Part shown: piece by piece, positions 17,189 through 33,339 of the stretch
How positions within the stretch are numbered: the first letter of the stretch is position 1
How the letters are laid out: every line of letters begins with the position of its first letter
Source of the DNA: Promethearchaeota archaeon
GTDB lineage: Archaea; Asgardarchaeota; Lokiarchaeia; Sigyniarchaeales; SOKP01
Assembly (NCBI GenBank): GCA_016839745.1
Contig: JAEOTS010000116.1
Location: 1-64,000, forward strand
Reading direction: 5' to 3'
DNA length: 64,000 bases
Program-made: the position numbers and the translations under genes
The notes under the pieces: generated by a model
Told to the model about the DNA's origin: nothing
The model's input: only the letters and a program-made list of their open reading frames with translations
Database searches by the model: none

Positions 17189-18547
17189 TTATTCAATATT
17201 CTTTAATCTATCCATAAAAGGTTCTACGCGAGTTTTAACTTGTTCTATGTTTTCTCCTATTTTTTTGAAATTTATGACTATTGCAGGAATATCTAATTCA
17301 GATTTTAGTTTTTCTTTTAATTTGTCGTAAGTTTTTGATATTGAAGGACAACCAAATACTTGATTGAAGATTAAACCATCTATATCCATATTTTCTGCTA
17401 CTGCTAAGTACGAACTCGTCATGTTTTCATCGTTACATCCAATGCCTTTTGCTGACGCATTCAAGAGAAATCGAGCGTATTCTTCAATTGGATCGGAGTG
17501 ATTTGATATGGATATTTCTTCCAAAAAACCTAATACGTCCCAATCTGCATAAATTACTCTTCCTCCCAAATTATAGATAATTTCATGTATTTCTGGTTCC
17601 CATCCTTGATACATTGGGGCAAATAACAACCTTGGCATTTTATAGACGTCCATACCTATGCCTTTTCTTATACGCTCTCTCATTTCTTTAACTAATTGGC
17701 TTAGATTTTCTAAATATCGTTGAGCATTGGAATTATAATCCTGAAATGTTATTGTTAAAAGAGCTAAAATTTCAGAAAATGTTGCAGGATTACAAGGGTA
17801 GAAATCTGAACCGCCAATCTCGTAAAGAATAGTCTTATAAAATCGTTTTACCTGGTTTCCGATTCGGAATTGCTTCTGTAAGCTATTATCTGATACAAAA
17901 TTGCCCGTAATGTTTTCTAATTCGCTAATTCCAGTCTTTATATTATCGACCATCTGTTTAAGAGCTTCATTTTCATTATACGAAGTTTTAGGAGGAACAT
18001 CAATTAATATTTGTCTCGGAACAATTGTCTTCAATGATTCATAGAACTTATTCCATCTACCACAGCGCATTGCGAAATTAAGATTAGCATCCACATTTTT
18101 TCCTTTTGATTTATGCATTCCGTAAAGAGCGTTAATTCCATAGCATAATTCTGAAGGAACACCATTATTAACGCCTAATTCGTACATTTCATTATATTTA
18201 CTGTTTATCGATGTAATAACATCTTCAAGAATTTTATCAACTATTTTTAGCACATCAAACTGGCGAGCGAAATCCAGAAATTTTGATGTCAAATCCCAGC
18301 CTAGAACCGAAGTAGCTGATGTTATTGGTGTTAGATATCTGCTAAAATCAAAAGTTTCCATCCTGATTGGAAAAACCGGAACTGCTCCAACCGCAAAAAC
18401 TAAATCGGGGAATCCTAAAGCAACAGAAATTAATTTCTTCTTTTCTCGAAATTTTTTCTTCCGTAAGTAATCTCTCCCCGTTAAAAAATTTGAAGCCATT
18501 TTTAGAACAGATGTGAAACTTAGGACATCATCAGCGTATATACTCGT
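17189..18547 (-). CDS. 2-hydroxyacyl-CoA dehydratase/benzoyl-CoA reductase-type subunit, paralogue 1; start proposed at ACG 18547..18545
   Basis: homologous along its length to 20446..21801; conserved Cys (ELCYG, MRCGRW, FGCPSI); N-terminal extension from ACG aligns without gaps to the paralogue's ATG start. Confidence 0.85.
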   Translation of the reverse strand, partial: TSIYADDVLSFTSVLKMASNFLTGRDYLRKKKFREKKKLISVALGFPDLVFAVGAVPVFPIRMETFDFSRYLTPITSATSVLGWDLTSKFLDFARQFDVLKIVDKILEDVITSINSKYNEMYELGVNNGVPSELCYGINALYGMHKSKGKNVDANLNFAMRCGRWNKFYESLKTIVPRQILIDVPPKTSYNENEALKQMVDNIKTGISELENITGNFVSDNSLQKQFRIGNQVKRFYKTILYEIGGSDFYPCNPATFSEILALLTITFQDYNSNAQRYLENLSQLVKEMRERIRKGIGMDVYKMPRLLFAPMYQGWEPEIHEIIYNLGGRVIYADWDVLGFLEEISISNHSDPIEEYARFLLNASAKGIGCNDENMTSSYLAVAENMDIDGLIFNQVFGCPSISKTYDKLKEKLKSELDIPAIVINFKKIGENIEQVKTRVEPFMDRLKNIE

Positions 18548-19113
18548 TTTGGGATCATCTCGAGTTACTGTTTAAATTTATGTTTTGTAGGACTACAATT
18601 TAAAATTAGTTATATAAAAGTAATAAAATTTATGAGCCAAATTATAAGGTTTTCAAACACTATTTGAAACATTTATTACCAATTTTTAAAGTATAATTGA
18701 TATATTATAGTTTTAAAACAGATTCAAAATTTCTCTCGAAGGAAGATTGAAAAACATATCCTTCAAAGCATCCAAATTAGAAAGTTTTTTAATAGAAATC
18801 TTATAAATTATTTAATTTTTAATTCTCTGTGTTTATAAAATTATATATTTACACATAAAATTAAATAATATCAATCCTTTATATAAATTATATATATTGA
18901 GTATTTGGTTTTCCCGTTCCTGTAAAATTTTTTAGGAATTTGGCTTAAAAGATAATATTAAGATAGGCACTGACTGTATCAAATTAATTTTTGCCTACTT
19001 TCAGTAGAAAAAAGCTAAATTGTTAATTATAAAATATCTAATTTCTTAAGGTATAATTAGCAATCAAATACTCTCAAGTGAAATTTTAGCAATAAAATGA
19101 AAAAAACAAGAGA

Positions 19114-20445: not shown

Positions 20446-21801
20446 TTATTTGAACATTTCCATAAATGCGCCTAATCTAGTTTTTACTTGATCGATTGAT
20501 TCTCCGATTTTATTAAATGTAATAGCAGTTGTAGGTATTTCTAATTCTCTCCTTACTTTTTCCCTTAGCATCGTGTAGCAATTTGAAATAGAATGACACC
20601 CAAATAATTGGAAAAAGACCAATCCATCGGCATTTAAATCTTTTGCCATTCTCAGATAAGATTCCGTTAATTTATCGTTATCACAACCAATTCCTGTTTC
20701 TGTAGCGTTCATGAGGAAGTGAGCATATTCTTCTGCGGGGTTTGAATGATTCGATGTGGGGATTTCTTCTAATAATTTTAACAATTCCCAATCAGCATAT
20801 AAAGCTCTTCCACCTAATTCATAGAGAATTTCGTGGCTTTTTGGTTCCCACCCTCCGAACATTGGTGTTACAAATATTCGTGGTCTATCGGATACATCCA
20901 TCCCAATTCCTTTTCTGATCCTTTCTCTCATTTCCTTTTCAAGCGATACCATATTGTCTCTATATCTGGTTGCGTTTGAGTTATAATCTTGAAAAGTAAT
21001 GCTTAAAAGTGCCATAATCTCGCTAAATGTTGCTGGATTGCAAGGGTAAAAATCGGAAGCGCTAATATCATATATTATATTTTTGTATGCTCTTTTTACT
21101 TGGTTACCAATTTTGAAATGATCTCTTAACTGATTATCCGTAATCGTATTACCTGTTAAATTCTCAAAATCTTTAATCGCGTCTGAAATATTATCAGTTA
21201 GTAATTCTATAGAATTTCCTATGTTTCTAGGAGGAATATCGATCCATATTTGTTTAGGCCCCTGGTTAATTGCTTTCAGTGATTCTAAATATTTATTGTA
21301 AGCACTACAACGAATTGTAACGTTAAGGCAAGCATCTACATTGCTACCTTTTGAGATGTGCATACCAACTAAACTTTTTAATCCATAACAAAAATCAGTT
21401 GAAATTCCACTCTCAATTCCAATATCATACATTTCATTGTACTTTTTATTTATAACATCAATTACCTCTTCGATAATGTTATCTACTATTTTACTGACGT
21501 CTTCAATTCCAAGATTCCTAATAAAACCGAGAAAATTTGATACTGAATCCCAACCAAAGATACTTGAAGCCGAACCTAAATATGTAAGATATTTATTTAT
21601 CTCAAATTGATGCATTCTTATTGGAAAAACAGGGATTGTGCCTGCCGCAAAAGCTAAATCCGAAAACGGTAAGGTAACCGCTACTAATTTCTCTTTTTCC
21701 CGAAATTTTTTCCTTTTCAAATAATTACGACCTGCCAGCAGGTTGTAAGCGATACGTAACACACTACTGAATTGTATAATCTCGTCTGCAATTAAACTCA
21801 T
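20446..21801 (-). CDS. 2-hydroxyacyl-CoA dehydratase-type subunit, paralogue 2
   Basis: DFCYG, IRCSAYNKY, YPCNPATFSE, FGCHSIS. Confidence 0.85.
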   Translation of the reverse strand: MSLIADEIIQFSSVLRIAYNLLAGRNYLKRKKFREKEKLVAVTLPFSDLAFAAGTIPVFPIRMHQFEINKYLTYLGSASSIFGWDSVSNFLGFIRNLGIEDVSKIVDNIIEEVIDVINKKYNEMYDIGIESGISTDFCYGLKSLVGMHISKGSNVDACLNVTIRCSAYNKYLESLKAINQGPKQIWIDIPPRNIGNSIELLTDNISDAIKDFENLTGNTITDNQLRDHFKIGNQVKRAYKNIIYDISASDFYPCNPATFSEIMALLSITFQDYNSNATRYRDNMVSLEKEMRERIRKGIGMDVSDRPRIFVTPMFGGWEPKSHEILYELGGRALYADWELLKLLEEIPTSNHSNPAEEYAHFLMNATETGIGCDNDKLTESYLRMAKDLNADGLVFFQLFGCHSISNCYTMLREKVRRELEIPTTAITFNKIGESIDQVKTRLGAFMEMFK

Positions 21802-26954: not shown

Positions 26955-26995
26955 TTTCGTTTATTATTTAAATTCTATAGTTAGGTGATTTTTGC

Positions 26996-28051
26996 ACGAG
27001 TATAATTATTCCATCTTATGCGTATACATTTATCAAAATCGATTATTTAAAGAATTTAATTATTGATGATGATACTTTAAGAAGATTGAAAACTGTATAC
27101 GATATTGAAACTTTTATAGACATCATAAAACCTTTTTATCCGAATATAGAGATAAAGGAATATACTATAGAAGAAATTGAAGGAGTTTTAATCAATAATT
27201 ATATTCAACTAATTGGAAAAGTTCAACAGTTTTCTCCTCTTAACATGAGAAAGTTCTTAAAAAACTATCTGATGAAGTTCGAAATTCAAAATCTCAAACA
27301 AGTTATCATCAGTTTAATTATAGGGATGGGACAAGAGGAAAGGAGAAAAAATATTAACTTCTTAGTTGAGGTCTATTTAGATAACACAGAATTCATTGAA
27401 GATTTGCTTAAACTCACCACTTTAGATGAGATTCAAATATTTCTTAAAAAATCTTTATATAATATTCCTATTAGAGAAGGGATCCTTTACTTTAAGAAAA
27501 ATAAAGAAATTTTTGTCCTGGAGGCATTTTTAGATCAACTATATTTTAATCATCTCAGAGAGCAATTAAAGAATTTAAATAAAAAAGAAAAAATAATGAT
27601 CTCATTATTTGTGAAGTATAAAACTGAGATTTATAACTTAAATGTGATTTATAGAGGAATTAAAAATAAAATCGATAGAAAATTACTATCACAATTTTTA
27701 GTGAATGATTATTTATTTTTAAATGAAGATAAACTCAACCATTTGTTAAATCTTAATACTCCTGACGATTTTCTCTCAAATGTGGAGTTATATCTTAAGA
27801 ATATAACAAAAACAGAGCAGATTTTTATCACATTAAAAATTGACCCTAAGCATATAATTAGGTCAATAGAACAATTTTATATTACTTATTATTTCAAGAA
27901 ATTTAAAATTAAAATCGACGATATTAACTTTTTCACAATATCAAAAATTTTGGAAGTCTTAATAAAAAAGGAAAAAGAAATCAAGTTTGATATCCTACCA
28001 AGAGTTATTAAAATCATTCATAAGAAGTTTAGAGGATTAAAAAAGTTATAG
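26996..28051 (+). CDS. A/V-type ATPase subunit C (d-like); start proposed at ACG 26996
   Basis: operon position; in-frame upstream codons encode SYAYTFIKIDYLKNLI, matching the conserved subunit-C N-terminus (YxYxxxRVRAMKSKL); SD GGTGAT at 26984-26989. Confidence 0.8.
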   Translation, partial: TSIIIPSYAYTFIKIDYLKNLIIDDDTLRRLKTVYDIETFIDIIKPFYPNIEIKEYTIEEIEGVLINNYIQLIGKVQQFSPLNMRKFLKNYLMKFEIQNLKQVIISLIIGMGQEERRKNINFLVEVYLDNTEFIEDLLKLTTLDEIQIFLKKSLYNIPIREGILYFKKNKEIFVLEAFLDQLYFNHLREQLKNLNKKEKIMISLFVKYKTEIYNLNVIYRGIKNKIDRKLLSQFLVNDYLFLNEDKLNHLLNLNTPDDFLSNVELYLKNITKTEQIFITLKIDPKHIIRSIEQFYITYYFKKFKIKIDDINFFTISKILEVLIKKEKEIKFDILPRVIKIIHKKFRGLKKL

Positions 28052-28733: not shown

Positions 28734-28749
28734 TTGAAGGTGATTAGCC

Positions 28750-29472
28750 ATTAGTGAAGGACAAGAAATTAAGGGAAGGTTTGGGAAATTAGGGTTGTAT
28801 TTAATAAGCCAAGCAGAAAATGATATAAAGACCATTAATCAACAAACTCTCTTTCAAATAGCAGAAGCTAAGAAGAAAAACAAGGAGAGAACTAGAGAAA
28901 GTTCTTTAAAGATGAAAGCGCACTTTAATGAAACCTTTAACAAATTATTAAATAGCTCTCTATCTTCAACTCTTTTAAAAATTAAAGAAGAAGTATTGAA
29001 ATCTAAAAATAAGTTAATGTTAGAGCTTATTTCTGACTTAACAGATTTAATAAACAATAAAATAAAAAACAACTATCCAAATTACACTAAGTTTATACTA
29101 ACAATTCTTAAAAATATTAAATATATTGTTGATAAGCCACCAGAGATTATTATTACATTAAATTCAAGAGATTACGACTTTTTTAGCAATAATAATGAAC
29201 AAATAGAAGAAATTTTTAAGAATAAAGTCAAGCTAAAGAAATCGGAGAAAAAATTCACAGGTGGTTTTATTTGCGTTGTATTGTCAGGAAATATTTCATA
29301 TAATTATACGATTGAAAATCAGTTAAAAAAAAACACTTCAATTATAGAAATTGAGTTTTCAAAGATTTTTTCAGATTCAGAATCAGATATTAAAAAGCTT
29401 GAAAACGATTATGTTCAATTTATACAAAATCAAAAGTTAGCTGTAGATAATTACTTAAAGGATTATGAATGA
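28750..29472 (+). CDS. A/V-type ATPase subunit E; start proposed at ATT 28750
   Basis: helical N-terminus and operon position; frame open to 28744; SD GGTGAT 28739-28744 lies 5 nt before ATT. Confidence 0.75.
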   Translation: MSEGQEIKGRFGKLGLYLISQAENDIKTINQQTLFQIAEAKKKNKERTRESSLKMKAHFNETFNKLLNSSLSSTLLKIKEEVLKSKNKLMLELISDLTDLINNKIKNNYPNYTKFILTILKNIKYIVDKPPEIIITLNSRDYDFFSNNNEQIEEIFKNKVKLKKSEKKFTGGFICVVLSGNISYNYTIENQLKKNTSIIEIEFSKIFSDSESDIKKLENDYVQFIQNQKLAVDNYLKDYE

Positions 29473-31306: not shown

Positions 31307-32694
31307 GCGTCATTTATAAAAAGATAAAGAAAATTATTGGACCTTTAGTGTTTTTAGATAATAAACATGATGTACAATATGGTGAGATCGTCAAAATCAG
31401 AACGGACGATGGTAAAGAACGAACGGGCCAAGTTGTGAAAATGGACGAGAGTACAATAACTATCGAAGTATTTGAGGATACAGCTGGACTGTCTTCCGAA
31501 AATTCTACAATTACCTTCACTGAAGATTCATTTAAAATAAAAATATCTAGTGATATGTTTGGAAGGGTGTTTAACTCCTTAGGAAAACCGATTGATATCA
31601 ATACAAAACAAGTATTAGAATCTGATATTTTAACTGAAATAGAAAGAGATATAAATGGTTTACCTATTAATCCATTTGCTCGAGAATATCCTTCAGAAGT
31701 TATTCAAACAGGAATCTCTGTGATAGATGGTCTTTTTACGTTAATTAGAGGGCAAAAACTCCCAATTTTTAGCGATCAAGGAATGCCCCATAATTTATTA
31801 GCAGCACAAATTGTTACTCAAGCCAAAGTTTTAACCGAAGAACCATTCTTAATAATTTTTTGCGGGATAGGAATCATCCAAGATGAAGCAATTTTTTTCA
31901 TGAAGCGTTTTCAAGAGAGCGGAAACATTCAGAATATTATTTCTTTTATCAACTTTGCTGATGATCCAATAATGGAAAGATTAATTGTTCCTCGTGTAGC
32001 TTTAACTACCGCGGAATATTTTGCATTTGAAAAAGACATGCATGTTCTCGTAATTTTAATTGACATGACCAATTACGCAGAAGCATTGAGAGAGTTAAGT
32101 TCAGCTAAAGAAGAGATTCCTAGCAGGAAAGGATATCCCGGATATTTATATACTGATTTTGCATCTCTCTACGAAAGAACTGGAAAAATTAAGGGCAAAA
32201 AGGGAACTATAACACAAATTCCGATTCTAACAATGCCAGGAGGAGATATAGCCCACCCTATTCCGGACACTACTGGATATATTACCGAAGGTCAATTAGT
32301 TCTAAATCGCAATTTGGACAAAAAAGGAATCTATCCTCCGCTTGAGGTTTTAGCTTCTATTTCCCGGTTAATGAAAGATGCTATTGGTAAAGATACTACT
32401 AGGGAAGACCATGCGGATGTTAGTTCTCAATTATTATCTTCTTACTCCGCTGCTCTTGAAGTTAGAGACCTTATATCAATTGTTGGAGAAGATGGATTAA
32501 GTTTTAATCAGAAAGCATTATTGAAATTTGGAGAAGTTTTCGAGCAAACTTTTTTAAATCAAAGTCATTCTGAGGAAAGAGATATTAAATCAACGCTAGA
32601 TATAGCTTGGAAGGCTTTATCTCATATACCAAGGCATCAATTATTTAGGATTCATCAAGAATTAATCGATAAATATTATGTTGGAGAGGTGTAA
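31303..32694 (+). CDS. A/V-type ATPase subunit B
   Basis: [85 protein letters not shown]. Confidence 0.96.
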
Positions 32695-33339
32695 CCAAAA
32701 GCGTCTTTTCGTGAATTCCGGCCCACCAAAACTAATCTACTCTCGCTGCAGAAGAGATTAAATTTTGCGGTCAAGGGTGAAAACTTTTTGAAATTTAAAT
32801 TAGAGCAATTAATGGTTGAGATCAAAGGAAATTGGGAAAATTATTTAAAGAGTCGTGAAATCTTTATCGATTTATACAAAGAAACTATGATTAAACTTCA
32901 TCAAACTTATAAAGAAATGGGAAAAAGAGACTTTAGCTTAGTCAGTAAGTTGAGTAAACTTCAATACAAACCTACGATAGATGTAAAGTATTTTAAAAAG
33001 ATTGGATCGTTAATTCCTGTAATTGAATATAAGTTGATAAAGGAGGAATTACTTCCTGCTTATTCATTTGAAAATTCAAGTCATTACCTTGATGACTTAA
33101 TAATAGTTTTAGAAATTTTTTTTGAACAACTCATTATCTTTGCAAAATTAGAAGATATAATGTTAAAGATCTCTCTGTCTTACAAGAAAATAAACCGAAG
33201 AATTAGAGGATTAAAAAATGTGATTATTCCTGAATTACAACTCGAAATAAAAAAAATAAAAGAGATATTAGAAGAAAACGAAAGAGAAAACTATGTTCGC
33301 TTAAAGAATACAAAAGACTTGATAACTAAAGAAATTTAA
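32695..33339 (+). CDS. A/V-type ATPase subunit D; true start unresolved (ORF track starts at 32788)
   Basis: codons upstream of 32788 encode FREFRPTKTNLLSLQKRLNFAVKGENF, the conserved D-subunit N-terminal helix, in frame. Confidence 0.8.
   Translation, partial: PKASFREFRPTKTNLLSLQKRLNFAVKGENFLKFKLEQLMVEIKGNWENYLKSREIFIDLYKETMIKLHQTYKEMGKRDFSLVSKLSKLQYKPTIDVKYFKKIGSLIPVIEYKLIKEELLPAYSFENSSHYLDDLIIVLEIFFEQLIIFAKLEDIMLKISLSYKKINRRIRGLKNVIIPELQLEIKKIKEILEENERENYVRLKNTKDLITKEI

Follow-up and report, generated by a model that had tools for sequence, protein, structure and literature searches.

The ATPase operon and its subunit C gene

The window, i.e., the whole 64,000-nucleotide stretch of DNA that was analysed, comes from a metagenome-assembled genome (MAG) of 3.5 Mb in 192 contigs. 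Inside its ATPase operon sits the gene for A/V-type ATPase subunit C, whose called start is TTG 27086. The initial annotation had proposed that decoding begins 30 codons upstream of that TTG, at an ACG, and re-reading of the window sequence found all the coordinates that it gave for this start to be correct. An in-frame stop, TAG 26978-26980, is 5 codons ahead of the ACG; the Shine-Dalgarno (SD) element GGTGAT is followed by TTTTGC, the ACG and then AGT ATA, with the frame open from there to the end of the gene (Table 1). Between that TAG and TTG 27086 there is no in-frame ATG, GTG or TTG, and the TTG at 26992 is out of frame, with its reading ending at TGA 27064.

The encoded protein is, by profile comparison, a divergent member of the broader PF01992 (AC39) family, which it matches at 85.8 bits (cut-off 29) over profile positions 7-318 of 339. 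It misses the cut-off of the NCBIfam equivalog TIGR02923 (AhaC), 74.4 bits versus 240.5, and its residue 7 aligns with position 4 of that profile. The subunit C profile had no match among solved structures.

Table 1. Coordinates in the window of the genes and initiation signals discussed in the text
Feature	Position	Strand	Remarks
GATGAT element	18554..18559	-	6 nt before ACG of the dehydratase-like gene
2-Hydroxyglutaryl-CoA dehydratase D-component family gene	17189..18547	-	PF06050; ACG 18547-18545
Shine-Dalgarno element GGTGAT, subunit C gene	26984..26989	+	6 nt before ACG
Proposed ACG start codon, A-type ATPase subunit C	26996..26998	+	homologous codon counted in 54 family loci
Full-length A/V-type ATPase subunit C gene	26996..28051	+	351 aa including the start; stop 28049-28051
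Shine-Dalgarno element GGTGA, subunit E gene	28739..28743	+	6 nt before ATT
Subunit E gene	28750..29472	+	PF01991; proposed start ATT 28750-28752
Subunit D gene	32695..33339	+	PF01813; CCA AAA GCG after the stop of subunit B

Conservation of the ACG codon

How widely is this ACG shared? The protein as read from it was searched for in 65 genomes belonging to the window's Lokiarchaeia family, 54 of which matched, and 54 orthologous loci with a readable start, from nine genera, were compared. The homologous start codon is ACG in 47 of the 54, ATG in six and TTG in one, and at none of the 54 is it a threonine codon other than ACG. Because each conserved threonine column elsewhere in subunit C uses three or four threonine codons, and because all four are in use elsewhere in these genes with ACG having a share of just 17%, the ACG appears to be kept as a start and not as threonine. 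From the ACG codon onward a peptide, TSxIxPSYAYTxIK, is retained in most of the 54 loci, so that the called TTG does, as had been claimed, cut off conserved sequence, and the orthologues lend support to ACG 26996-26998 as the probable start. A GGTG-type element is present 5-9 nt, mostly 5-8 nt, upstream of the ACG in nearly all of the 47, i.e., the putative start has GGTGA or similar at a usable SD spacing and is one base from the ATG that six orthologues carry.

On a tree of the 54 proteins, made with the first residues omitted and by a quick method that gave two long branches, the start codon changes seven times, with ATG and TTG confined to isolated tips, e.g., the ATG locus L029 beside the ACG locus L028, and L030, also ATG, beside L053, again ACG. 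Since, wherever this could be judged, subunit C starts with ATG in the order's other families as well as in other classes, the ACG start looks to be a trait of this particular family.

The window has a second ACG site, on the opposite strand at 18547, in a gene of the 2-hydroxyglutaryl-CoA dehydratase D-component family. It had been described as having the very arrangement of subunit C; the N6-ACG-AGT-ATA part of that description stands, but the element ahead of it is GATGAT (within GAGATGATCC) and not GGTGAT. Counting the window's copy, 29 loci were compared: at the homologous start position 16 have ACG and 13 have ATG, with AGY always next, and in a paralogue at 20446-21801 the codon that aligns there is ATG.

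Other genes with proposed unconventional starts

As with subunit C, the TTG codons called as starts for subunits E (28795) and D (32788) lie inside the genes. In the window's subunit E gene the likely start is the ATT of GGTGA-N6-ATT (28750), a position at which about 32 of 39 relatives (counted by eye) have ATT, ATA or ATC, mostly ATT, a few having ATG or TTG. For subunit D, the codon at the start place in 37 loci is ATA (9), ATT (9), ATC (5), ATG (9), GCG (2), TTA (2) or CAT (1), and further relatives bring another five ATT and another GCG, so that ATT, ATA or ATC is there in most of them. The copy of subunit D in the window is at odds with the explanation preferred below, as after the stop codon of subunit B it has CCA AAA GCG TCT TTT (32692-32712), and not one of its three initial codons differs from ATG by a single base; in its closest relatives an ATT is at the start place, followed by AAA GCG or ACA GCG.

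Is this confined to the ATPase? The gene for PheRS-beta (pheT) in 30 genomes of the family starts with ATA in 14, ATG in seven, TTG in six and GTG in three. The copy in the host genome (L048 263-290, G000:C9) has an ATA start after GAGGTGA, and in the alignment to TIGR00471 the residue after that ATA takes profile position 2. When parts of the host genome were sampled and their 258 ORFs scanned for coding potential, about eight (3%) had candidate starts other than ATG, GTG or TTG, a rough share and not a verified count; beside PheRS-beta, the candidates include a small GTPase, a response regulator and a cytidylyltransferase. In the G029 stretches, compared with other loci, few genes were flagged, among them a DapL-like aminotransferase with GGTG-N6-ATT as its candidate start.

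Coding seems to extend upstream past every ATG, GTG and TTG in five minus-strand ORFs, L036 (from 12536), L042 (from 4587), L035 (from 6321), L201 (from 5760) and L204 (from 14562). Their products are a small GTPase, a response regulator, a cytidylyltransferase, a DapL-like aminotransferase and an unknown protein, and most of these ORFs have GGTG(A) ahead of ATT or ATA.

Across two family genomes, 748 kb in all, the codons that follow GGTG near ORF starts were scored. ATT, ATA and ATC were at 11 of 35 sites 7 nt after GGTG, versus 46 of 461 at the spacings that served as control (p=0.0008, with the spacing chosen post hoc), and at spacings 6-8 the enrichment has p=0.005. ATG, GTG and TTG were likewise enriched at 7 nt (9/35 versus 34/461). 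A small sister-family control of 118 kb was uninformative, and a cruder scan for SD and codon within the opening 60 codons of ORFs gave hardly any enrichment even for ATG. ACG starts as a genome-wide rule were rejected: across the host genome the counts of GGTGAT-N5-7-ACGA and GGTG-N4-9-ACGAGY were near those of the reversed control, and so ACG starts are presumably few there. Nor does the near-cognate habit seem to be general to all genes, since in 20 genomes of the family the neighbouring genes of uL2, a small sample with no ribosomal protein cluster there, have ATG, GTG or TTG starts.

Initiation machinery and a proposed mode of readout

An initiator-type tRNA stem-loop with a CAU anticodon is present in seven genomes of the family, and none among the matches listed has an initiator-type stem with a CGT anticodon; a dedicated ACG-reading initiator tRNA was considered and not seen among them. 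The 16S 3′ end, GGATCACCTC / TGCGGCTGGATCACCTC, with its anti-SD, was found in 36 of the 65 genomes and matches the GGTGAT element; the host genome's own initiator tRNA and 16S 3′ end were not recovered from what is an incomplete MAG. Sulfolobus aIF1 counteracts non-AUG initiation complexes, according to work cited in passages of PMC6237735 and PMC8211752. Loss of this factor was rejected as SUI1/aIF1 is present in the host genome and most relatives.

The reading that we prefer, and to which we would assign a probability of about 0.8, is that ACG 26996 is the start of subunit C, with SD-anchored initiation by ordinary Met-tRNAi on a near-cognate codon. GGTGA(T) would pair with the ordinary archaeal anti-SD, so setting the ACG in the ribosomal P site, where Met-tRNAi, with its CAU anticodon, would initiate despite one codon-anticodon mismatch. 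With both the ribosome starting at ACG and methionine being the first residue as predictions, the product would be Met-Ser-Ile-Ile..., its N-terminus being (M)SIIIPSYAYTFIK or SIIIPSYAYTFIK, and TSIIIPSYAYTFIK were the ACG to be read as threonine. Subunit C would then be one case of a wider habit of the family, in which SD-led genes start at ACG, ATT, ATA or ATC. That start selection at SD-led genes is relaxed in this family, with ACG and ATH as regular starts for a few percent of genes, core ones among them, and kept over nine genera in the case of subunit C, we consider reasonably probable.

Alternative explanations

Could the ACG owe its existence to a sequencing or assembly error, or to an isolated mutation? 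That the host genome is a fragmented MAG would speak for this, but independent projects have yielded this codon at 47 loci, the complete chromosome CP070805.1 among their sources; the orthologues refute the idea and its probability is negligible. Similarly, an indel that would place TTG 26992 in frame is excluded as a general explanation, the same arrangement being in dozens of independent MAGs. A different thought is that the conserved stretch is not the start of the protein, and that initiation is really downstream, at TTG 27086, or upstream, at an in-frame codon in the SD. A search limited to ATG, GTG and TTG does pick TTG 27086, and 18 of the 47 ACG loci have some in-frame ATG, GTG or TTG upstream, often a GTG within the SD element, which counts against our preferred reading. 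However, the other 29 have no such codon between the upstream stop and the ACG, and in six orthologues a stop codon directly precedes the ACG; the nearest downstream in-frame ATG, GTG or TTG is anywhere from 4 to 97 codons away, its position not being conserved among orthologues, whereas conservation of the protein begins at the ACG codon itself, where six orthologues have ATG. We regard a start elsewhere as very unlikely.

A further rival is that the ribosome never meets the ACG at all, C-to-U editing of the transcript having provided it with an AUG, as in plant organelles. Both the subunit C and dehydratase sites have only ACG and never another threonine codon, and they share the context ACG-AGY, both of which speak for editing. 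Yet AGY also follows ATG in nearly all of the ATG orthologues, so that the shared context needs no editing signal, and the ATT, ATA and ATC starts of subunits D and E and of PheRS-beta in the same genomes would be left unexplained. A literature search, of limited coverage, yielded no archaeal mRNA editing of this kind. SD-anchored near-cognate reading is favoured because it covers the ACG and ATH starts together and C-to-U editing deals just with ACG; editing is thus improbable here. Of another nature, since it extends the preferred reading, is the suggestion that the ACG is a deliberately weak start that lowers or regulates the output of C relative to the many-copy subunit K encoded just upstream. 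The ACG persists in nine genera though a single change to ATG works, as is seen at the isolated tips, and K mostly starts with ATG or GTG. Against this, F, which also is present as one copy per complex, mostly starts with ATG, and the variation of D, E and PheRS-beta among ATT, ATA, ATC, ATG, GTG and TTG has the look of tolerance and not of fine control. A regulatory role is possible, though we lean somewhat against it.

Relation to known systems

The bacterial infC gene, for IF3, has an AUU start that is tied to IF3 autoregulation. As with subunit C, a core gene here keeps a near-cognate start codon behind a strong SD, and infC provides a comparison in principle for reading the ACG as a means of translational attenuation; unlike it, the lokiarchaeial genes have no known link to initiation fidelity. 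Asgard archaea are the closest known prokaryotic relatives of eukaryotes, their proteins are widely used for reasoning about eukaryote origin, and start-codon fidelity (aIF1/eIF1) belongs to that story.

In passages of a review of archaeal initiation (PMC7531240), AUG, GUG and UUG are the only start codons named, either after an SD or leaderless. The family shares with ordinary archaea SD-led initiation, GGTGA-type elements and an ordinary initiator tRNA, and its ACG and AUH starts fall outside the set named there. Closer is the AtubA tubulin of Kariarchaeaceae (Heimdallarchaeia), for which a likely rare ATT start has been proposed (PMC13394414, 2026). There too, in an Asgard archaeon, the database start cuts off a conserved N-terminus and a near-cognate codon has an upstream ribosome binding site; in contrast, it involves one gene in one genome of a different class, with ATT and not ACG, and no conservation survey. 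This is the sole direct precedent found, by a search of limited coverage, so that the absence of others is weak evidence of novelty. In plant organelles, ACG starts are often repaired by C-to-U editing (compare PMC12548569 and PMC9845219), and the likeness is that conserved genes have ACG in their DNA at the start; the difference is that the Lokiarchaeia family also has ATT, ATA and ATC, which C-to-U editing could not convert to AUG.

If relaxed start selection is real, automated annotation systematically truncates conserved N-termini in the family's protein sets, and its initiation machinery would tolerate a near-cognate codon given an SD to hold the ribosome in place.

A separate observation concerns subunit A of the ATPase in two relatives, L052 and L064, where the match to subunit A picks up again behind an in-frame stretch whose last residues are HNFIGGITPFILHNT / HNFIGGPQPIILHNT; these resemble an intein's C-terminal splice junction.
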